Assembly (NCBI GenBank): GCA_016217765.1 | Contig: JACRGP010000181.1 | Span: 1 to 38,724 of the forward strand | Length of the DNA stretch: 38,724 bases | Source of the DNA: Nitrospinota bacterium | GTDB lineage: Bacteria; Nitrospinota; Nitrospinia; Nitrospinales; JACRGP01 | Reading direction: 5' to 3' | In this document: piece by piece, positions 7,282 to 17,856 of the stretch | Layout: every line of letters starts with the position of its first letter | How positions within the stretch are numbered: position 1 is the first letter of the stretch | Notes under the pieces: generated by a model | What the model saw: only the letters and a program-made list of their open reading frames with translations | What the model was told of the DNA's origin: nothing | The model's database searches: none | Position numbers and translations under genes: made by a program

Positions 7282-8481
7282 ATGAACGATTGCGATTTTC
7301 TGGTGATAGGCGGCGGCGTCATGGGCGTCAGCGTCGCCCGCGAATTGAAAAACCGGTCCGGCGGCGCCCGGGTCGTATTGATCGAAAAGGAGGGCGATTG
7401 CGGCCTGCACGCCAGCGGGCGCAACAGCGGCGTCCTGCACGCCGGATTTTATTACTCCGCCGACAGCCTCAAGGCCAGGTTTTCCCGCCAGGGAAACGTC
7501 CTGCTGACGGAGTACTGCGAATCCAAGGGACTTAAAATCAACAAATGCGGGAAACTCGTGGCGGCCAGGGACGAAAGCGAGTGGCCCTTTCTCGACGAGC
7601 TTCTCAAAAGGGGGAAAGCCAACGGGGTCCCCCTGCACGACATCACCGAGGCCGAGGCGAAAGGCATCGAGCCGCGCGTCAGGACCCGCGGGCGCGCCCT
7701 GCTTTCTCCCACGACCTCCTCCGTGGACCCCCGGGAAGTGATGCGGGCCATGAAAACCGACGCGGTCCGGGAAGGCGTCGACGTGCGCGTCGGCGTCCGC
7801 TACCTCCAGCGCGATGAAGACGGCGTTTCCACTTCCGCCGGGAAAATCCGGGCCGGGTACGTCGTCAACGTCGCCGGGCTGTACGCCGACAAAATCGGGA
7901 AGGATTTTGGTTTCTCAAAAGACTACCGCATCCTGCCGTTCAAGGGGCTCTATCTGTATTCGGAGGAGCCGCCGGGGGCCCTCCGCGCGCACGTGTACCC
8001 CGTCCCCGACCTGCGCAACCCATTCCTGGGCGTACATTTCACGCTGACCCCCGACGGGCGGTCGAAGATCGGGCCCACCGCCATCCCCGCTTTCTGGCGG
8101 GAACAATACTCGGCGCTGGGCAATTTCGACCTCGGCGAATTCGCGGAGATCGTCGCCCGTCAGTTGGGCCTGTTCGCCTTTTCGAATTTCGACTTCAAGC
8201 GGCTGGCCTTCGAGGAGATCGGAAAATACTCGCGCCCCAAACTGGTCTCGCTGGCCTCCGCGCTGATCGAAGGGGTCAGGCTGGAAAACTATAAAAAGTG
8301 GGGGAAACCGGGAATCCGGGCGCAGTTGCTGAACATCAAGGAGAGGAAACTGGAGATGGACTTTGTGCTGGAAGGGGACGGCGAGTCCATGCACGTGCTG
8401 AACGCCGTGTCCCCCGCGTTCACCTGCGCCATCCCGTTTGCCCGGCACATCTGCGGCGAAATCGCCCGCTTGCGGAAATGA
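7282..8481 (+). CDS. lhgO: FAD-dependent oxidoreductase, L-2-hydroxyglutarate oxidase-like
   Basis: MNDCDFLVIGGGVMGVSVARELKNR (GxGxxG), GLHASGRNSGVLHAGFYY, and GPTAIPAF typical of LhgO/L2HGDH. Confidence 0.88.
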   Translation: MNDCDFLVIGGGVMGVSVARELKNRSGGARVVLIEKEGDCGLHASGRNSGVLHAGFYYSADSLKARFSRQGNVLLTEYCESKGLKINKCGKLVAARDESEWPFLDELLKRGKANGVPLHDITEAEAKGIEPRVRTRGRALLSPTTSSVDPREVMRAMKTDAVREGVDVRVGVRYLQRDEDGVSTSAGKIRAGYVVNVAGLYADKIGKDFGFSKDYRILPFKGLYLYSEEPPGALRAHVYPVPDLRNPFLGVHFTLTPDGRSKIGPTAIPAFWREQYSALGNFDLGEFAEIVARQLGLFAFSNFDFKRLAFEEIGKYSRPKLVSLASALIEGVRLENYKKWGKPGIRAQLLNIKERKLEMDFVLEGDGESMHVLNAVSPAFTCAIPFARHICGEIARLRK

Positions 8482-8562: not shown

Positions 8563-9453
8563 CTATTCCATCTCCGTCTGGACGGCTCTCAAGAGGTTTT
8601 TCATCCCATCGTCCTTTTCGGGGGAATCCCGCAGTATTTCAAGAGAACGATGGTAAAGTCCGTAAGAGTAGGCGAGGGTCGCTTTAAGGAATTTTTTCGC
8701 GCCGTCGTCGATTTCGCGCAGACGGTCGATTTCGGCCATTTCATCAGCCACCTTTTGCTCGGCGTCGGGAGCGAGCAGGGCAAACCATGCCAGGCTTGAA
8801 GAAAGGACGTTGGCGTGGACGGGATCCCACCCTTCCACTTTCCAGTAATACTTTCGGCCAGGCTCCAGCGCGGGGGCGTCCTTGGGCAGAAGGACGGGGC
8901 CCGCGTCCGGCTTCGCCTTAAAGGAGTATCTGAACCGCGGTTTCCCCGAAATTATGGATATCTCCGGTTCCTCCGAACCGGCCAAACCCGTCCAATGGAA
9001 TTGCAGTTCGCGGGAGAAAACAAAGGAATTGCGGGGGTGGGACAAGACGATTTCGCTTCCGCCCCGGACCATTCCGCTGACGGAGGGGGAGCTTCCTTTT
9101 TGCGCGGTTTCCTTGACGGCGGCAAGGACCCGGGCGGCCAGGTTCTGTCTGGGCTGAGCGGCGCCCTCGTCCGCCGCGACGGTAAACGTCTCGCGATTTC
9201 CCACCGCGATTATCCGGCCGCTGGCGTAGAGGACGGTGGCGGAGCCGTCGAGGCTTTTAATCGTGTCGCCTAGCTCCAGGACGCTTCCGGATTTCGCCGC
9301 CAGCGTTTTCCCTTTGGAGACGATTTCGACTTTGCCCTTGACGGAGACGACGACGCCCGCCGAGGCAAAACAGGGAGCCGCCCAGAGCAGGAAAACCGGC
9401 AGGAACGCCGCCAAACAAACGCAGGGTCCTTTTCTCTTCAGGTAGGTTGTCAT
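8563..9453 (-). CDS. Secreted FecR-domain-like protein
   Basis: Signal peptide (MTTYLKRKGPCVCLAAFLPVFLLWAAPCFA), then GVVVSVKGKVEIVSKGKTLAAKSGSVLELGDTIKSLDGSATVLYASGRIIAVG, typical of a FecR/LysM-like beta domain. Confidence 0.75.
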   Translation of the reverse strand: MTTYLKRKGPCVCLAAFLPVFLLWAAPCFASAGVVVSVKGKVEIVSKGKTLAAKSGSVLELGDTIKSLDGSATVLYASGRIIAVGNRETFTVAADEGAAQPRQNLAARVLAAVKETAQKGSSPSVSGMVRGGSEIVLSHPRNSFVFSRELQFHWTGLAGSEEPEISIISGKPRFRYSFKAKPDAGPVLLPKDAPALEPGRKYYWKVEGWDPVHANVLSSSLAWFALLAPDAEQKVADEMAEIDRLREIDDGAKKFLKATLAYSYGLYHRSLEILRDSPEKDDGMKNLLRAVQTEME

Positions 9454-9480
9454 GGCTTGCCGCGAAGGGCGCCCGCGGTC

Positions 9481-11556
9481 CTATTTGGAGGTCAGCGTAT
9501 ACACTCCGTCCCAATCGTCGCCGGGCGGATTGCCGCGAAGCGCCCGGCAACGCTCCAGATAGATTTTCGAAGGGCCGTCGTCGTTCCTAACGAGGAGCGC
9601 GGACTCGAAAAACTGGACCGCCGCGTCCCATTCCCGGTTTTGATAGGCCCGCAAACCATTATGGAACAGGTCCATCGATTTTTCAAACTCTTCTCCATGG
9701 GTTTCGTCGATGCGCCCGAGCAATTGATAAACTTTTACCGGTTTCCGCTTGCCCTTGACGCGCAGACAATCCAGCGGCCGGGCGCGGAACGCGTCCTTGA
9801 TTTTCAGATAGGTGGATTCGCTCGCCATCAAATAAGTCCCATACTGCTTGTTCGCGCTCTCGAGCCTTGAGGCGAGGTTCGCCTCGTCTCCGATGACGGT
9901 GTAATTGAAGCGGGTTTTCGAGCCGATATTGCCCACCACGACCCGGCCGGTATTGATCCCGATCCTTGTTTTGATTTCGCGTTTTGTCCCTTGCGAAAAT
10001 CGGCGGTTGAAGTTTTCGGAGAATTTCAACATCTCCAAGGCGGCGGCCGCGGCTTTCAGCGCATGGTCTTCCTGTTTCACGGGGGCGTTCCAAAACGCGA
10101 CAATGGAGTCCCCCACGAATTTATCAAGAGTCCCGCCGTACCGCAGTACGATTTGCGTCATGCCCTCGAAATACTCGCCGAGCAGGCGCACCAGCTCCGC
10201 CGGGGAAGTCTGCTCGGACATTTCCGTAAACCCCTGCAAGTCGGTGAACAGGATGGTCAACTCCTGCTCCTCGCCGCCGAGAAAAAGCCGGTCCGGCTGG
10301 CCGACCAGAATTTCGACGAATTCGGGAGAGAGATACATCTGAAACGCTTTTTTAATCCACCGCTTTTGAGCGTCCTCCGTGAGGGAGCGGTAAATCGTGG
10401 CCGAGACAAAGGAAAAAACGGCCGCGGCCGCGAAAGGGACCGCGGGCAAAGCCAGGTCCGTTTTCTCGAAAACCGGGAAGGACGCCGCGAAATACGCGAA
10501 AAAGAGACCGAGCAATGCCGGAACGGCGGCAATGGCATGCCAGCGCAACGCCAGGAACAGGGCCAGGGCCGCGACGAATAAAAGGGACGCGAAAAAGATG
10601 GGCGCCGGCGGAAAACGGACCGTCTTTGCGCTGAGCAAAGTCGCCAGGGCGTTGGCGTGTATTTCCACGCCGGGCGTCAAGGCATGGCCGTATTGGGGCG
10701 AGTAAAAGGGAGTCCGATGAGTGTCCGCGCCGTCGGAGTATCCGGCGCCGATCAGGACGAATTTGCCCGCCAGCCATTCTTTCGGCAGGACGCCGGCGAG
10801 CGCCGCCGAGGCGGGGAATACCTTGATCGGGTTCTTGCCTGCCGCGGCGGTCGAGGGCGGACCCTGATAGTTTATCAATATCCGGTTGCCGCCGCCGGAC
10901 CCGATTCCCGGCAAAAGGTCTGGCGGCAAATTCGGGACGGCGGTTTTTGAAGGAGAAAATTTCGCGCGACGGTCGAGAAGGACCAGGGCCGCCGACAAAC
11001 TCGCGACGGTTTGCGGACCGGCGGAATACGAAAGCTGGATTTCCCTGACGCTTTGATCGACGGGATCGACGGGAAGGTCGGCGAGGGCCACGCCGACAGC
11101 GGCGTTCAGGAATTCCGGGTCGGGAAGATCGACCGTCTTTTTTCCGTCCCGGTTTCGCAGGGCCGAGACGACGACGGTCCTCCCGTTTTTGCGTAGCGAA
11201 TCGGCGAGCGCGCCGTCTTCTTTTTCCCAGCTTGGGTCTTTCAGAAACACGTCGAGCCCGACCCATCGGGCGTCCGCCTCGGTCAGGACGTCGACAATGC
11301 GGGCCAGCATGTCTCTTGGCACGGGACTGCGATAAGGGTATTGGTCCATCGCCGGATCGTCCAGCAGGACCACGGCCACGTCCTTGCCGAACGCGGGGTC
11401 CGGCTCCCGAAACCGCATGCGCCAGTCGAGCGTTTTCTTTTCGATGCCGGAGATCAAATGGGTCTGCCCCGCCAACGAGGCCAGGGCGCAAGAGCCGAGG
11501 ACGATCGCGCCGAAAAGGACGGTCTTGAAAAACGGGCCATGGAACGACGCGCGCAT
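9481..11556 (-). CDS. CHASE2-domain membrane class III adenylate/guanylate cyclase
   Basis: N-terminal TM plus CHASE2 (IEKKTLDWRMRFR..VAVVLLDDPAMDQY), three C-terminal TMs, cyclase domain with both metal aspartates (LFTDLQGFTEMSE, KFVGDSIVAFWNAP) and INTGRVVVGNIGS. Confidence 0.93.
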   Translation of the reverse strand: MRASFHGPFFKTVLFGAIVLGSCALASLAGQTHLISGIEKKTLDWRMRFREPDPAFGKDVAVVLLDDPAMDQYPYRSPVPRDMLARIVDVLTEADARWVGLDVFLKDPSWEKEDGALADSLRKNGRTVVVSALRNRDGKKTVDLPDPEFLNAAVGVALADLPVDPVDQSVREIQLSYSAGPQTVASLSAALVLLDRRAKFSPSKTAVPNLPPDLLPGIGSGGGNRILINYQGPPSTAAAGKNPIKVFPASAALAGVLPKEWLAGKFVLIGAGYSDGADTHRTPFYSPQYGHALTPGVEIHANALATLLSAKTVRFPPAPIFFASLLFVAALALFLALRWHAIAAVPALLGLFFAYFAASFPVFEKTDLALPAVPFAAAAVFSFVSATIYRSLTEDAQKRWIKKAFQMYLSPEFVEILVGQPDRLFLGGEEQELTILFTDLQGFTEMSEQTSPAELVRLLGEYFEGMTQIVLRYGGTLDKFVGDSIVAFWNAPVKQEDHALKAAAAALEMLKFSENFNRRFSQGTKREIKTRIGINTGRVVVGNIGSKTRFNYTVIGDEANLASRLESANKQYGTYLMASESTYLKIKDAFRARPLDCLRVKGKRKPVKVYQLLGRIDETHGEEFEKSMDLFHNGLRAYQNREWDAAVQFFESALLVRNDDGPSKIYLERCRALRGNPPGDDWDGVYTLTSK

Positions 11557-14500
11557 TTAGAGGTCCATTTTGCCTGTCAGGTAGAAGGGCGCCCAGAAGT
11601 AAGGCGAGGGATAATCCCGCATCAATTTCAGCTGGGCGTTTTTAAGGGCCAGGGCGGCTCCCTTGGGAAGGTCGTCGTAAAAATATTGCATGAGCTTGTA
11701 GGTCGATTCGTCGGACACTTTCCACAGGCTGGCGACCACTCCCCCCGCCCCGGCATACAGGAACGCGCGGTTCAGGCTCTGGACTTCGTCGCCTCCGCCG
11801 AGCTTGCCCAAGCCGGATTGACAGGCGCTCAAAACCACCAGCCGGGAATTCATGGTCAGAGAATAAATTTCGAACGTCTCCAGGTCGCCGTCTTCCCTCG
11901 GGTCGTTGGCGAGGAGGATGGCCGATTTGAGCGGGTCCCTGGCGTTATATCGCCCGTGGGCGGCAAAGTGGACGATCGCCGTGTCAAGCAGGTTTTTCTC
12001 TTTTATCCAGGACTCCGTCGCCTGGTCTCCGGTCAACACCGTTTTCCGGGGGAAGTTCCGGGAAATGGCCTTGATCTCCTGCTCGGCGAATTCCAGTTCC
12101 AGTCCCTTTTTCTCTCTTTTGGGGTTGCCGAGCGCCAGGATTCTGTCCTTGTTGGCGGTAATTTCCTTGTCCAGATAAAACAGGCTGGAAGCGTTCGGCA
12201 GAATGGAAATGGCGTAATCCTGGACCAGAAAACGGTTCCCCGCCAGGGGCAGGCTGGAAAAGGGCAGATAATGAATGGGGCCGGAGGGGACGACAAGCAG
12301 TTTGTCGGCGGAGACTAATTTGTCCTTTATCGGGTCCAGGAGGACCGCGGAGAGGTTTTTCCCCAGGTCCAGCCGGAGGGTCTCCTGACGCGAGGCGATG
12401 GCATCGCGGTAATCCTGGACCAGTTGCGCCAGTTCGGCCGACCCGGCGTCCGCGGCCACGGCGGTAATGGCGTCGCGCGTCGCGACCCAGACGAGGGTCC
12501 TTTTCTCTCCCGCGTAATACGAAATCAAAGCGGTCCCCTGTCGAAGAGAACCCATTATTTTTTTTACGGGGACCGCGGCGACGGAGGAAGTGGCGGCGTA
12601 TTCCAGGCTTTGGTCCTTGATTTTCTCCAGGACGTCGCGATTCTCCTTCAACAACCGCTTGAACTTTGTATTGGCCGCGTTCCGGTCATCGTCCTTGAGA
12701 GTTTTCAGGCTCCTGCCGACGACTTCGATCTGGCCCCGCAGGTCTTTTTCCTTTTGGACCAACGCGGGGTCCACGGTTTTTTTCGCCTTCGGGGAGCGTC
12801 CCGCCAGCATGTCCAGAAAAGCCCGGCCCTTGGACCGCTCGAGATAGTCGAAACCGTCGGCGTATTCGCCCATATCAAACAGAAGGTCGATCGCCCGCCC
12901 GTAAACGTCCTGTCCCGAGGAGGCGAACATTTGCCGGACGGTGTCCTCGCGCAATCTGGACCGGGTGAGTTCCAAGGCGTTTACGGCTCGTTCGAGATAT
13001 TTTCTGGCTTCGGGATAGTTGTTGTTTTTTATCAGGGCCCCGGCTATCTCGTAGCTCGCGCGCCAGATCACGTCGACGGCGCCGAGGTCCTCCGCTTCGC
13101 CGAGGAACGCGTCGTATTCCTCAAGATCGCGGCCGCTTATTTTTCTATCCGGCATGAGAAACTCCGTTTTATATCGAAGGGCCCGGTTTAAGAGGAGGCC
13201 AAAGGGGCGCCCGCTCGACAGGAAACTTTCCCTTCCCAGGTCGAAGTGGCGAAACGCCTCGTCGAATTTTCGCATCTCGCCCAATAGCGCTCCCCGGACG
13301 GTGTAGTAATGGCCAATGCCTTCGAGGAGGTCCCCGTCGGCGCGATAAAAAACGCCCCTCATGGGATCGTTGACTTGTTTCAAAACTTCCTGGATCAGCT
13401 TGTCGGCCTCGTCCAGCTCCCCCAGACCCTTCTGGTAGTTTTTCACGAAATAATGGGCGGAGGCGAGGTTGATGCGGGAATGAATGATGGCTTTGCTTTT
13501 CCTGACCCATTGGTATAACTGATCGCTGTCGGGAACCTTGACGGGTCCGGAGGGCGGGACAAATCCTTTGTGAATCGCCAGGGCTTCCAGATAGAGTTCG
13601 GAAGCTTTTTCGGGATTCCCGGAAAAGAGGTGGACGTCCCCCGCGCTGGCGTCGATTTCGGCGGCATCCCCGTTCGCCCGCGCGCCGATTTCCCTGGCTT
13701 CGCGCAGAATGTCGAGAGCGGAGGAGTATTCCCCCGTTTCCGTCAGGAGCCAACCGATCCTCTCCATACATAGCAGGACCTGTTTCCGCTTGTTCTCCGC
13801 CTTGAATTTTTCCAGAAGCTTGCGGTATTCCGCGACGCCTTTTTCATAGTCTCCGCGGGCCACGAGGTTTTCCGCGGCGCGCGTGTCGTTAAGCCAGACG
13901 AACTGGAAGGCCATGGCGTCGTCGAGCGCCAGGCCGACGCGGCTTTTCCCCTGGACGAAGCTCTCTTTTGCCGACGCCAAGTAACGCGTTGCCTCGTCAA
14001 CCTGGCCCGCCTCTTTATAATAGGCCCCCAGAAAAAGCCGGATGAATCCCATCCCTTCGTGATGGCTGGAGTCGGATTTTAGCGCCATGCCGTAGAGAGG
14101 ATGGTTTATCACTTTGAAAATGTCGCTCATGAGGGCCTCGGCTTTCTGGAGGTTCTCGCGCGCCGGGTCCATTTCCCGGTCGAACAAGCGCTTCGCGCCG
14201 AGGTTGACGCGCGCGTGAATTATGGCTTTGGATTTCCGAATGAGTTCGGAGAGTTCTTTCTGGCTGGGACGGGACTTGAACGAGGTGGGGAACACGAAGT
14301 TTTTGTGGGCGTTCAGGGTCCTGTAATAATATTCGGTAGCTCTTTTGCCGTCCCCCGAAAACAGATAAATGTCCCCGATATCGGCGTCGATTTCCGCGGC
14401 GTCGCCGTTCAAGCGAGCGCCGAGGGGATAGGCTTCGAGAAAAAACTTCAGGGCCTTGCCGTAGTCGCCGTTTTCCTTGAACAGCCACCCCATTCTCTCC

Positions 14501-14751
14501 AAACAAAAGAGTTCGCCCAATTCGTCTTTTTGCGCGCGGTACTTTTTAAGACCCTTTTCGTACTCGACAAGCCCCCTTTCGTAGTCTCCATCCGAGATGA
14601 ATTTTTCGGCTCGAAGCGTCTCCTCGGACAAATCTACGGCGTATTGAGTCGATTGCAGGGAAGCGCAGGAGGGGAGGAAAAAAGAACAACAAAACAGGAC
14701 AACAAATCCGCGGAAAACCGGAAAAGAAGGGCGTGAAAGCGGGTTTTTCAT
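11557..14751 (-). CDS. TPR-repeat CHAT-domain (caspase-like) lipoprotein
   Basis: Lipobox FFLPSCAS, many TPRs, C-terminal CHAT domain with HFAAHG (His) and VVLSACQSG (Cys), and YAGAGGVVASLWKVSDEST. Confidence 0.92.
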   Translation of the reverse strand: MKNPLSRPSFPVFRGFVVLFCCSFFLPSCASLQSTQYAVDLSEETLRAEKFISDGDYERGLVEYEKGLKKYRAQKDELGELFCLERMGWLFKENGDYGKALKFFLEAYPLGARLNGDAAEIDADIGDIYLFSGDGKRATEYYYRTLNAHKNFVFPTSFKSRPSQKELSELIRKSKAIIHARVNLGAKRLFDREMDPARENLQKAEALMSDIFKVINHPLYGMALKSDSSHHEGMGFIRLFLGAYYKEAGQVDEATRYLASAKESFVQGKSRVGLALDDAMAFQFVWLNDTRAAENLVARGDYEKGVAEYRKLLEKFKAENKRKQVLLCMERIGWLLTETGEYSSALDILREAREIGARANGDAAEIDASAGDVHLFSGNPEKASELYLEALAIHKGFVPPSGPVKVPDSDQLYQWVRKSKAIIHSRINLASAHYFVKNYQKGLGELDEADKLIQEVLKQVNDPMRGVFYRADGDLLEGIGHYYTVRGALLGEMRKFDEAFRHFDLGRESFLSSGRPFGLLLNRALRYKTEFLMPDRKISGRDLEEYDAFLGEAEDLGAVDVIWRASYEIAGALIKNNNYPEARKYLERAVNALELTRSRLREDTVRQMFASSGQDVYGRAIDLLFDMGEYADGFDYLERSKGRAFLDMLAGRSPKAKKTVDPALVQKEKDLRGQIEVVGRSLKTLKDDDRNAANTKFKRLLKENRDVLEKIKDQSLEYAATSSVAAVPVKKIMGSLRQGTALISYYAGEKRTLVWVATRDAITAVAADAGSAELAQLVQDYRDAIASRQETLRLDLGKNLSAVLLDPIKDKLVSADKLLVVPSGPIHYLPFSSLPLAGNRFLVQDYAISILPNASSLFYLDKEITANKDRILALGNPKREKKGLELEFAEQEIKAISRNFPRKTVLTGDQATESWIKEKNLLDTAIVHFAAHGRYNARDPLKSAILLANDPREDGDLETFEIYSLTMNSRLVVLSACQSGLGKLGGGDEVQSLNRAFLYAGAGGVVASLWKVSDESTYKLMQYFYDDLPKGAALALKNAQLKLMRDYPSPYFWAPFYLTGKMDL

Positions 14752-14817: not shown

Positions 14818-15031
14818 CGCCGCCTCAGGCTGACGCCGAGGCGGGATGTAGCTCCCCCTTGCAAAGGGGGCCGGGGGGATTCGCATTTCGGCGACCGCGC
14901 CAGCGTCATCGCTGTGTTGCCTCCGGACGGTTGCCCGGCTTTTCACCCCCCACCTGCCCTCCCCCTTGACAAGCAACACAGTTGCTTCAGGGGGAGGGAA
15001 TTATGGGAAATTTCATTTTGTTATGCGCCTC
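14818..15031. repeat. Composite intergenic palindromic repeat (family copy R1)
   Basis: CCGCCTC..GAGGCGG hairpin, core ctcccccttgcaaagggggccggggggattcgc (14852-14884), then a long hairpin ccctcccccttgacaagcaac/gttgcttcagggggaggg (14957-14998), ending ttcattttgttatgcgcc. Confidence 0.8.
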
Positions 15032-15061: not shown

Positions 15062-15640
15062 TTAAATCTTGTTTTCCCTGGTCAGGTCCTGTTCCAGGAT
15101 CTCGCAGATGACGTGCCCGATGGCGATGTGCGCTTCCTGGATGCGCGCGGTGTCCCTGGAGGGGACGACGATGGCCACCTGGACGCAATCTTTCGCTTTC
15201 CCGCCCTCGTTGCCGAACAGGCCGATCGTCGCGGCCCCGAGTTCGTTGGCCCGTTTCAGGGCGCGGATAACGTTTTCGGAATTTCCGCTCGTGCTGATCC
15301 CCAGCGCCACGTCGCCTTTCCGGGCAAAGGCTTCGACCTGTCTTGAGAAGACGGCGGCGTATTCGTAATCGTTGCCGATGGCGGTCAGCGTGGAGGCGTT
15401 CGCCGTGAGGGCGATGGCCGGGAGGGCCTTCCGTTCCTTCTTGAAACGGCCGACGAGTTCCGCCGCGATGTGTTGCGCGTCGCTCGCGCTCCCGCCGTTG
15501 CCCATGAGCAGTAGCTTGCCGCCGTTGGCGAGGCTTTCCTTGATCAACTGGGCGGCCTTGTATATCTCTCCGGACAGGGTTTCGGCGACGACCTTCTTGA
15601 GTTCGGCGCTGGCCAGCAAATCTTTTTTTATGCGTTCCAT
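15062..15640 (-). CDS. gmhA: D-sedoheptulose 7-phosphate isomerase (phosphoheptose isomerase)
   Basis: SIS-domain protein: LLLMGNGGSASDAQHIAAELVGRFKKERKALPAIALTANASTLTAIGNDY..ISTSGNSENV. Confidence 0.95.
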   Translation of the reverse strand: MERIKKDLLASAELKKVVAETLSGEIYKAAQLIKESLANGGKLLLMGNGGSASDAQHIAAELVGRFKKERKALPAIALTANASTLTAIGNDYEYAAVFSRQVEAFARKGDVALGISTSGNSENVIRALKRANELGAATIGLFGNEGGKAKDCVQVAIVVPSRDTARIQEAHIAIGHVICEILEQDLTRENKI

Positions 15641-15685: not shown

Positions 15686-17191
15686 TCAGCGGTGTGCTTC
15701 AGTACGTCCGCTGGAACGATTTAAAAAATCCATTTCAATTTGAGGCAACTGTTTCGGTTTTTTCCCTAGACGAGACCAATCAACGACATTCAAAATTCCT
15801 GTTTTTATTGGTCGCTTTTCATCCCAGAAAATTAACGAGGACAGTAGTCGCAAAGATGGTTCAGAAATGAGTAAGTCAAGAGCTTCTTGCGCCTCACTCT
15901 CCGTATTAAACGATAAATAGTAAACCGTATCATCGAACATAACCGGTTTATTCTCTATTGGCCCAACTAAACGAAACTTGAGCGATTTGTAAAGCCCACA
16001 AATAGCTATTCGCCAATGACGAAAAGCATAGTCACCTATGCCGAATATTGAAAACCTAGGATTTTTTTTGTATATCGTGCTACTTCTCGCATCAAGAATA
16101 GTCGCGTGAGCTTCGAGATACTCCCATGTTTTAGGACTATTTTCACGAATCCCTCCGGTTCTCTCTCCCACAAAATGCTGTGTCACTACAACGAATTTTT
16201 CGCGCCAAGGCTTCCCGCTACCAATATCCGAACCTTTAAGTAGCGGAAACAGATAATCCATCTCAATATCAACGAGTTCACCTAACCCATTTATCAGCCC
16301 TTGTGCTGTTCGAGTAAGTTCCATAACTGATGAGGCATCATGTTTTACTCCAGAACGCCATTTTTGCGGACATTCTCCAAGCAAAAACGATGATGATTCA
16401 AAGGCATCAAGGTCACCCACCGTTAAACCATCTCGATGACCGACTCTACGCCCATGGGTGTCTGACATGCTTTCAAATATAGAGTAGTCATATATAGCAT
16501 CAGTCGGATTTTCCGATATTCTTATCACTAACAGACATGCTTCAACAGAGGCATTGAAGTCTTTTTTCGCGTCAATGGAAAATATGCTCGCCTCACGAAT
16601 TGGCAGTTTTTGTCGTTCGGCGTGTGCCAACACTTTTCTTGCGACTGCTGTTTTTACCAACATGGCAATATCGCCAGAGCGTCCGCTGAACCACCGCAGA
16701 ACCTCAAGTAGCATCCATTCTGAAATATCAAAATTTGCTTTCCCGTTGATAGCATCAAAGCCATTCTGTTTCAAGAAGTTGGATTTTTCTGGAAGATTGC
16801 CACCTCCAATAACCCCCTGAGTGGCGTTTGTTACCCACGGAAAATTTCCTAAAACAAGGACGGAACCTGAAAGACTACGGAGCATCTTTTTCCAATCAGT
16901 AGCGAAGAAATCGGCTTGTGTAAGTTTTATTTTATCTGAATTCCTGGCGGCAGAAAGTCGTTCTCGCAATTTCGACAAGTGTGAGTCATTAACCTCGAAT
17001 CCATGAATTTCACGAACAGACGGAAATGTGGATACAGCAACCAACACAAATGTGCCAATGCCACAGGTTGGCTCAATTACCACATCCGGAGAAATGCCAA
17101 GAGCGGATAATTTAGTACAGACCGATTGCGCTAAATTATCCGGCGTTTGAAAATCCCCAAACTCAATTTTTTGTTTTCGCCGAGCATTCAA
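15686..17191 (-). CDS. N6-adenine-type DNA methyltransferase of a putative type II restriction-modification system
   Basis: Motif I VIEPTCGIGTFVL; motif IV-like VLGNFPWVTNA. Overlaps the upstream endonuclease-like gene by 4 nt; AT-rich relative to flanks. Confidence 0.85.
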   Translation of the reverse strand: MNARRKQKIEFGDFQTPDNLAQSVCTKLSALGISPDVVIEPTCGIGTFVLVAVSTFPSVREIHGFEVNDSHLSKLRERLSAARNSDKIKLTQADFFATDWKKMLRSLSGSVLVLGNFPWVTNATQGVIGGGNLPEKSNFLKQNGFDAINGKANFDISEWMLLEVLRWFSGRSGDIAMLVKTAVARKVLAHAERQKLPIREASIFSIDAKKDFNASVEACLLVIRISENPTDAIYDYSIFESMSDTHGRRVGHRDGLTVGDLDAFESSSFLLGECPQKWRSGVKHDASSVMELTRTAQGLINGLGELVDIEMDYLFPLLKGSDIGSGKPWREKFVVVTQHFVGERTGGIRENSPKTWEYLEAHATILDARSSTIYKKNPRFSIFGIGDYAFRHWRIAICGLYKSLKFRLVGPIENKPVMFDDTVYYLSFNTESEAQEALDLLISEPSLRLLSSLIFWDEKRPIKTGILNVVDWSRLGKKPKQLPQIEMDFLNRSSGRTEAHR

Positions 17192-17856
17192 GACTTATGT
17201 CCTCTATAAACCGCCAGAACTCCATCCACCATACCAGCTTTCTCAATAACTCTTGTGTATTGTAGTCGCCATTGTAGGGCGTTGGATATTGTCAAGTACC
17301 CCTGTGTTGGCGGATTTCTTTGAATTTCGACAGCAAGGTTGTTAAGTTCAATTTCATCTACCGGAAGGTTCTTCTCAGCCATGAAAGCTATCAAATCATC
17401 AACATTTCCTTCGTTGTCCAAGATGTCGCGCAACCCTTTTGTTATTTGAAAATCGGCGGTTTGCTTTGCCTTGACAAATATTGTGTCCGTTATTTTCAGT
17501 GTGGCCATGCGTAGTGCTTCATCATCATTTTTATCATAAACAAAAATGATTAACGAGTAGCCTAAACCATAGATTTTTTGACGTGCCGACTTAAAGGGGC
17601 ATGATGACTGCGGTTGTCGAATGCTTGTGACCTTCATGTCAACACAAAGATCAGGAAAATCTATTCCGCTTGCTGAACTCCCTTCTTCGAAGGAATAGCC
17701 CCTCTCTGTCAGGTATGTGCGAAACTTGTGCTCAAGATAAGTACCAACGGCTTTCCCATCGGTCACACCAAACAGCGATGGTTCAGGATGCTGGCTTTCC
17801 TCTGCTGAAAATGTGCTTGCTTCGGAACAGAGGGTTTGAATGATTAATTTTCTCAA
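17188..17856 (-). CDS. Putative type II restriction endonuclease (PD-(D/E)XK-like)
   Basis: SGIDFPDLCVDMKVTSIRQPQSSCPFKSARQKIYGLGYSLIIFVYDK contains a D..DxK arrangement; directly cotranscribed with a DNA methyltransferase. Confidence 0.72.
   Translation of the reverse strand: MRKLIIQTLCSEASTFSAEESQHPEPSLFGVTDGKAVGTYLEHKFRTYLTERGYSFEEGSSASGIDFPDLCVDMKVTSIRQPQSSCPFKSARQKIYGLGYSLIIFVYDKNDDEALRMATLKITDTIFVKAKQTADFQITKGLRDILDNEGNVDDLIAFMAEKNLPVDEIELNNLAVEIQRNPPTQGYLTISNALQWRLQYTRVIEKAGMVDGVLAVYRGHKS

Follow-up and report, generated by a model that had tools for sequence, protein, structure and literature searches.

The complete 38.7-kb contig JACRGP010000181.1 from the metagenome genome of a groundwater Nitrospinota bacterium, hereafter called the window, carries three consecutive minus-strand genes, which code for a candidate lipoprotein protease with tetratricopeptide repeats (TPR) and a CHAT domain, a predicted CHASE2-adenylyl cyclase, and a secreted protein similar to MtxA of Magnetospirillum (Table 1). 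This trio is probably a real envelope-sensing unit. The original prediction, made from the DNA letters alone, described three minus-strand open reading frames with the first two abutting (11557/11556) and the third 27 nt away, and we found the genes arranged in this way: the TAA of the CHAT gene is directly followed by the ATG of the cyclase gene without any gap, and the 27 nt lie between the cyclase gene and the third gene. In addition, there is a strong terminator-like hairpin just upstream of the CHAT gene, and the gene beyond the third one, a homologue of L-2-hydroxyglutarate oxidase (7282-8481), is convergent. Thus, the three genes appear to form a single and complete transcription unit.

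Table 1. Features of the three-gene cassette, with positions in the window
Feature	Position	Strand	Evidence
TPR-CHAT lipoprotein protease (candidate), 1064 aa	11557..14751	(-)	Pfam PF12770 E 1.6e-62, TPR_12 E 2.4e-22
CHAT domain, residues 795-1060	11572..12369	(-)	Pfam PF12770
Catalytic H932; C977	11956-11958; 11821-11823	(-)	invariant in six homologues (alignment A5)
Tandem duplication of ~240-aa TPR unit, residues 51-291 and ~295-535	13147..14601	(-)	38.6% self-identity
Candidate lipidated Cys29, FFLPSC/ASL	14665..14667	(-)	hydrophobic N-terminus; Pro at -2 non-canonical
CHASE2-adenylyl cyclase (predicted), 691 aa	9481..11556	(-)	Pfam; transmembrane segments by hydropathy
CHASE2 extracytoplasmic sensor domain, residues 29-332	10561..11472	(-)	PF05226 E 3.5e-37
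Class IIIb cyclase domain	9718..10266	(-)	PF00211 E 2e-29; D439, D483, K479, T553, N560, R564
Secreted MtxA-like protein, 296 aa	8563..9453	(-)	AlphaFold2 and Foldseek
N-terminal beta domain, residues 33-91	9181..9357	(-)	AlphaFold2; FecR-like by distant relatives only
Met-Val-Arg (MVR), residues 128-130, in linker between N-domain and Ig domain; candidate cleavage site	9064..9072	(-)	invariant in alignment A4
Ig/Fn3-like domain (143-226) and TPR-like helices (229-295)	8569..9027	(-)	AlphaFold2, Foldseek
Terminator-like hairpin, strong, just upstream of CHAT gene	14820..14844	(-)	

Predicted properties of the three proteins

The CHAT domain was recognized with 212 bits against a Pfam cut-off of 24, and several TPR models also matched the protein. 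Homologues of the CHAT protein at 46-53% identity were found in another Nitrospinota family (genome G007, locus L007), in two Desulfobacterales (L010 and L011), in Ca. Desulfacyla of the Desulfobacterota (L012), and in an Omnitrophota genome (L013). The CHAT histidine (HFAAHG) and cysteine (LSACQSG) noticed in the original prediction are present, and both are conserved in all cassette homologues examined; judged by its catalytic residues, the enzyme looks intact and active. The closest solved CHAT structures are those of Csx29 (PDB 7y9x, E 2.2e-5). The TPR unit that is duplicated in the window is single in the CHATs of L012 and L013 (alignment A5).

All cassette CHAT homologues with a complete N-terminus have a hydrophobic, export-like start, and most of them have a lipobox-like Cys. 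This Cys is found at the same N-terminal place in the sister species (G001), G007, L010, L011, and L012, and the lipobox-like sequences at about this place are ILGC, TMSC, TMGC, FWSC, and AQGC. Because most homologues carry better lipoboxes than the LPSC of the window, the window protein may well be lipidated. The original prediction regarded a lipid-anchored, periplasm-facing CHAT protease beside a cyclase as an unusual circuit. However, CHATs with export-like N-termini occur elsewhere in Nitrospinota (L074, L075), and the topology alone is thus not unusual. A further CHAT of the window genome (L008) shows neither a lipobox-like start nor an adjacent cyclase.

In the second protein, CHASE2 scored 128.8 bits against a cut-off of 26.3, and the catalytic domain matched Guanylate_cyc (PF00211). 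Hydropathy predicted one N-terminal transmembrane segment (12-30) and three later ones (319-337, 342-360, and 368-386). Among class III cyclases, a Lys and Thr specificity pair is the class IIIb pattern. In the cassette cyclases, the metal-binding D439 and D483, the ATP-selecting K479 and T553, and N560 and R564 are all invariant (alignment A6); the two metal aspartates, described earlier as intact, are invariant across nine aligned CHASE2-cyclases. The closest solved cyclase structures are Pseudomonas aeruginosa CyaB (3r5g), 2w01, and 1wc0. From this similarity and the class IIIb signature (Lys479, Thr553), the cyclase looks active and its expected product is cyclic AMP (cAMP). The original prediction spoke of cyclic nucleotides in general as output; the cyclase stands, and the output is narrowed to predicted cAMP by the class IIIb signature. 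The window cyclase shares the Lys and Thr pair with CyaB 3r5g, 2w01, 1wc0, and sAC, but it differs from this comparison set in having CHASE2 as input and in being membrane-bound. The Thr of sAC-like cyclases is held to predict a response to bicarbonate (PMC3383692). Furthermore, seven matches to cyclic nucleotide-binding proteins were found in the same genome, and such a protein adjoins the cyclase of L116, a further Desulfobacterota genome.

The third protein was called FecR-like in the original prediction. However, it has no FecR match in Pfam or NCBIfam, and there is no match to PF04773 in the window genome at E<=0.01. FecR membership was thus rejected by the profile searches of both protein and genome, and the layout and fold are MtxA-like instead. 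Among its relatives, the L116 homologue reached E 0.0083 against PF04773 (17 bits, cut-off 24), and the L012 homologue reached E 0.0076 against Pfam MtxA_C (16.9 bits, cut-off 27), the sole match to that model among the cassette relatives. AlphaFold2 predicted a beta N-domain, an Ig/Fn3 domain, and TPR helices, with pLDDT 64 for the window model and 77 for the L012 homologue; in the window model, linker residues 120-143 had pLDDT<50. In Foldseek searches of the PDB, the C-terminal domain of MtxA (4Z29) ranked 3-4 for the window model (E 1.9e-3, probability 1.00) and first for the L012 homologue (E 2.2e-7, 179 columns, 20% identity). No direct sequence link to 4Z29 was found with profile A4, and the link is by fold only. 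In addition, a link to cyanobacterial DUF928-CHASE2 clusters was rejected: the DUF928 matches were weak (E 0.07-0.14), and no cyanobacterial cluster with CHAT was shown.

The magnetotaxis protein MtxA, known from Magnetospirillum, is secreted and has a beta region at its N-terminus, then an Ig-like domain and a TPR domain. In these magnetotactic bacteria, the next gene downstream of mtxA codes for a CHASE2-adenylate cyclase (MGR_0208; PDB 4Z29; PMC4439547). It has a crystal structure and no known function, and homologues have been reported in only few organisms. The window protein shares with MtxA the beta N-region followed by Ig/Fn3 and TPR, the same Ig-TPR fold, and the place beside a CHASE2-adenylate cyclase gene. 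However, the two proteins are only ~20% identical, and the window protein remains below the Pfam MtxA_C cut-off. The histidine corner of MtxA (LxPGxH) is not kept either, and a tyrosine corner (LEPGRKYY) is found in its place; therefore, we call the protein MtxA-like rather than MtxA. The loci also differ, as the cyclase gene comes first in the window, and a CHAT protease with mtxA is not described in PMC4439547. MtxA was crystallized only after trypsin had cut it near residue 141 and set free a C-terminal fragment (PMC4439547), at a domain boundary that roughly corresponds to linker 120-143 of the window protein.

Recurrence of the cassette and related gene pairs

A genome scan with the CHAT profile gave six loci. 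The trio was found in the same order in G001 at 95-97% identity, in G007 at 50, 50, and 34-36% identity (CHAT, cyclase, and third protein), and in Ca. Desulfacyla at 52, 52, and 38%. In the Omnitrophota locus L013, the order is CHAT, secreted protein, and CHASE2-cyclase, and the cyclase is only 27% identical. Scanning Desulfobacterota with the third protein gave a further trio, L116, in the order CHAT, MtxA-like protein, and cyclase. When Desulfobacterota and Omnitrophota were scanned with a profile of the cassette CHAT, full-length relatives turned up only in genomes already known, and the plasmid CHAT relatives in Nostoc, Azospirillum, and Caballeronia have no adjacent CHASE2 annotated.

For 17 further TPR-CHAT loci, 8 kb or more of sequence was available; CHASE2 is found within ~10 kb of CHAT in seven of them, and in three (L166, L169, and L180) CHAT and a CHASE2-cyclase are neighbors without a recognized MtxA-like protein. 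In the cyclase tree, in which several rows outside the cassette clade are long branches, the cyclases of the window, G001, G007, and Desulfacyla formed one clade (100/100). The CHAT-CHASE2 combination probably arose more than once, because the cyclases of L013, L116, L166/L169, and L180 fall outside this clade. The original prediction listed a lack of conserved linkage in other genomes among the results that would refute it, whereas we found the trio in three or more phyla and with two different orders of its genes. Since the trio recurs in unrelated phyla and CHAT-CHASE2 pairs are found elsewhere, the gene linkage is not accidental, and this recurrence supports the proposal of a conserved envelope signalling cassette. 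We found no description of the trio in the literature, and "CHASE2" and "CHAT domain" did not occur together in any of the papers searched.

The pairing beneath the cassette is a common one. In 34 of 77 Nitrospinota genomes, a PF04773 FecR match lies within 7 kb of a CHASE2 match (53 of 104 CHASE2 matches), against a chance expectation of ~1.4, for which the numbers of matches were used and a genome size of 2.8 Mb was assumed; related genomes are not independent of one another. FecR-CHASE2 is thus the common pair, and the lipoprotein CHAT protease is the added part. A similar pair occurs on pAMI5 of Paracoccus aminophilus, where a FecR-type gene is directly upstream of a CHASE2-cyclase gene at a distance of 12 bp. 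Unlike the cassette, the pAMI5 pair has no CHAT, and its FecR domain is recognizable, which is not the case for the window protein.

Some other loci with CHAT proteins were also observed. Another envelope cluster of Nitrospinota (L074, L075, and L076, in G026:C11, G014:C15, and G007:C15) has an exported TPR-CHAT in L074 and L075 together with CHASE2, lipoproteins of the LPP20/FlgO/DUF4384 types, and a trypsin-like protease; the domain scan covered L074, where CHASE2 is fused to a sigma-54 activator. In Desulfobacterota, a repeated set (L174, L175, L178, and L179) includes an exported TPR-CHAT, a glycosidase-like protein, and a channel-like protein, all named by sequence inspection alone, with CHASE2 close by. 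In G001, a protein in which caspase (C14), FGE, and sulfatase are fused is the neighbor of a CHAT protein (L081:106-4171, G001:C105).

With regard to the surroundings of the cassette, a type II restriction-modification pair (methyltransferase and restriction enzyme) and a phosphoheptose isomerase gene adjoin it in the window (15686-17856 and 15062-15640); all of these are missing at the syntenic place in G001. In G007, NACHT-pentapeptide proteins are encoded just upstream of the cassette and near it (L007:304-3456 and L082:2722-5466, G007:C40).

Proposed mechanism and alternatives

We propose that the cassette is an envelope-sensing cAMP unit in which CHAT cuts the MtxA-like protein and in this way changes CHASE2 and cAMP, and we give this reading a rough probability of 0.45. 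The sensor core is likely the MtxA/FecR-type protein together with the CHASE2-cyclase. The class IIIb adenylyl cyclase would span the inner membrane, with its CHASE2 domain on the outer side and its catalytic domain in the cytoplasm, and the secreted MtxA-like protein would control CHASE2 by lying on or near it. To this core the cassette adds the TPR-CHAT protein, which, as a lipid-anchored cysteine endopeptidase on the periplasmic side, would act upstream. Its TPR repeats would detect an envelope cue, and the CHAT site would then be activated allosterically as in Csx29, whose CHAT active site becomes ordered when its TPR domain changes structure and then cleaves a single partner protein (PMC10028731). 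The cut by CHAT would fall within the flexible, conserved linker of the MtxA-like protein and part the N-terminal domain from Ig-TPR; it would alter CHASE2 and cAMP, to which cytoplasmic cyclic nucleotide-binding proteins would respond. What we infer are the contact between the MtxA-like protein and CHASE2, the cue, the cleavage with its position, and the direction of the effect. A narrower version, a periplasmic three-part switch in which the lipid-anchored caspase-like protease cuts the MtxA-like adaptor at MVR and turns the cyclase on or off, is rather doubtful.

Several points speak against this mechanism. The cutting of a partner by CHAT is itself something that we infer, and the conserved flexible linker would make it concrete. 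MVR is not kept exactly in L116, whose linker reads VPGIRKK, and the L116 CHAT is incomplete and runs off the contig. In L013, CHAT lacks the lipobox Cys, alone among the close homologues, and the secreted protein is of similar size and has no Pfam match and no detectable sequence similarity to that of the window. In L180, the CHAT-linked CHASE2-cyclase (L180:6072-8147) no longer has the Lys and Thr of class IIIb (EHFLGD, YGVVGD), and its substrate or activity may differ. When mtxA was deleted in Magnetospirillum, no visible phenotype resulted; the effect may be small, or it may stay hidden under standard conditions. Finally, the CHATs of L010 and L011 have no adjacent partners, although the upstream side of L011 ends at the contig edge.

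These orphan relatives favor another explanation, in which CHAT, as an effector, either degrades envelope proteins or matures them, and the same stress is sensed separately by the co-regulated cyclase pair. The Nitrospinota cluster that groups an exported CHAT with lipoproteins, a trypsin-like protease, and a CHASE2-sigma-54 activator would also fit it. However, CHAT and CHASE2-cyclase are paired repeatedly and independently, and their genes often abut or overlap, which suggests a tighter link than co-regulation; we regard this explanation as unlikely, though it is the best of the alternatives. Somewhat less likely still, CHAT might cleave the CHASE2 ectodomain or its anchor, with the MtxA-like protein as a ligand-binding adaptor instead of a substrate. 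CHASE2 is indeed the more constant neighbor of CHAT, as the pairs in L166, L169, and L180 indicate, but no conserved flexible segment stands out as clearly as the linker of the MtxA-like protein, and no conserved unstructured loop was identified in CHASE2, which was not modelled.

It is also conceivable that CHAT is a non-proteolytic TPR scaffold or a cytoplasmic protein, as many TPR proteins are scaffolds and the LPSC lipobox is non-canonical. The His and Cys conserved in every cassette homologue examined, together with the export-like starts and the lipobox-like Cys of most homologues, make this improbable. Least probable is a module for defence or programmed death similar to CRASPase (Csx29) or Pycsar. 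The window CHAT has TPR and CHAT with His and Cys like Csx29 of the type III-E CRASPase (PMC10028731) and is distantly similar to it (NF041237, E 4e-10), but the score is 39.2 bits against a cut-off of 300; unlike Csx29, which is RNA-activated and works with Cas7-11, it is exported and has no Cas7-11, and an exported topology does not fit the sensing of phage nucleic acids. PycC models match nothing in the cyclase protein beyond its generic catalytic domain, and the cassette lacks a Pycsar effector. Restriction-modification genes are near the cassette in the window and a NACHT-pentapeptide gene is upstream in G007, although the former are missing from this place in G001. PADLOC gave generic cassette matches only: beyond PycC, there was a weak BovA match in CHAT.

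Meaning of the cassette

Our results indicate that what is new in this cassette is the CHAT protease, which is joined to a known pairing of an FecR/MtxA-type protein and a CHASE2-cyclase. The cassette connects the MtxA fold with a broad range of CHASE2-cyclase pairs and offers a candidate protease that may act on this fold. It is of interest that a protein of known structure is thereby linked to a protease and a second messenger. No description of partners of CHASE2 was found in the literature, and even without the proposed mechanism, the FecR/MtxA-CHASE2 linkage points to a candidate partner of this widespread sensor domain. If the mechanism is true, an envelope event outside the inner membrane would be converted to cAMP by a caspase-fold protease. 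Furthermore, if the switch by a cut at MVR is true, a caspase-fold protease would control a second messenger across the bacterial inner membrane, and a role would be suggested for the MtxA family.

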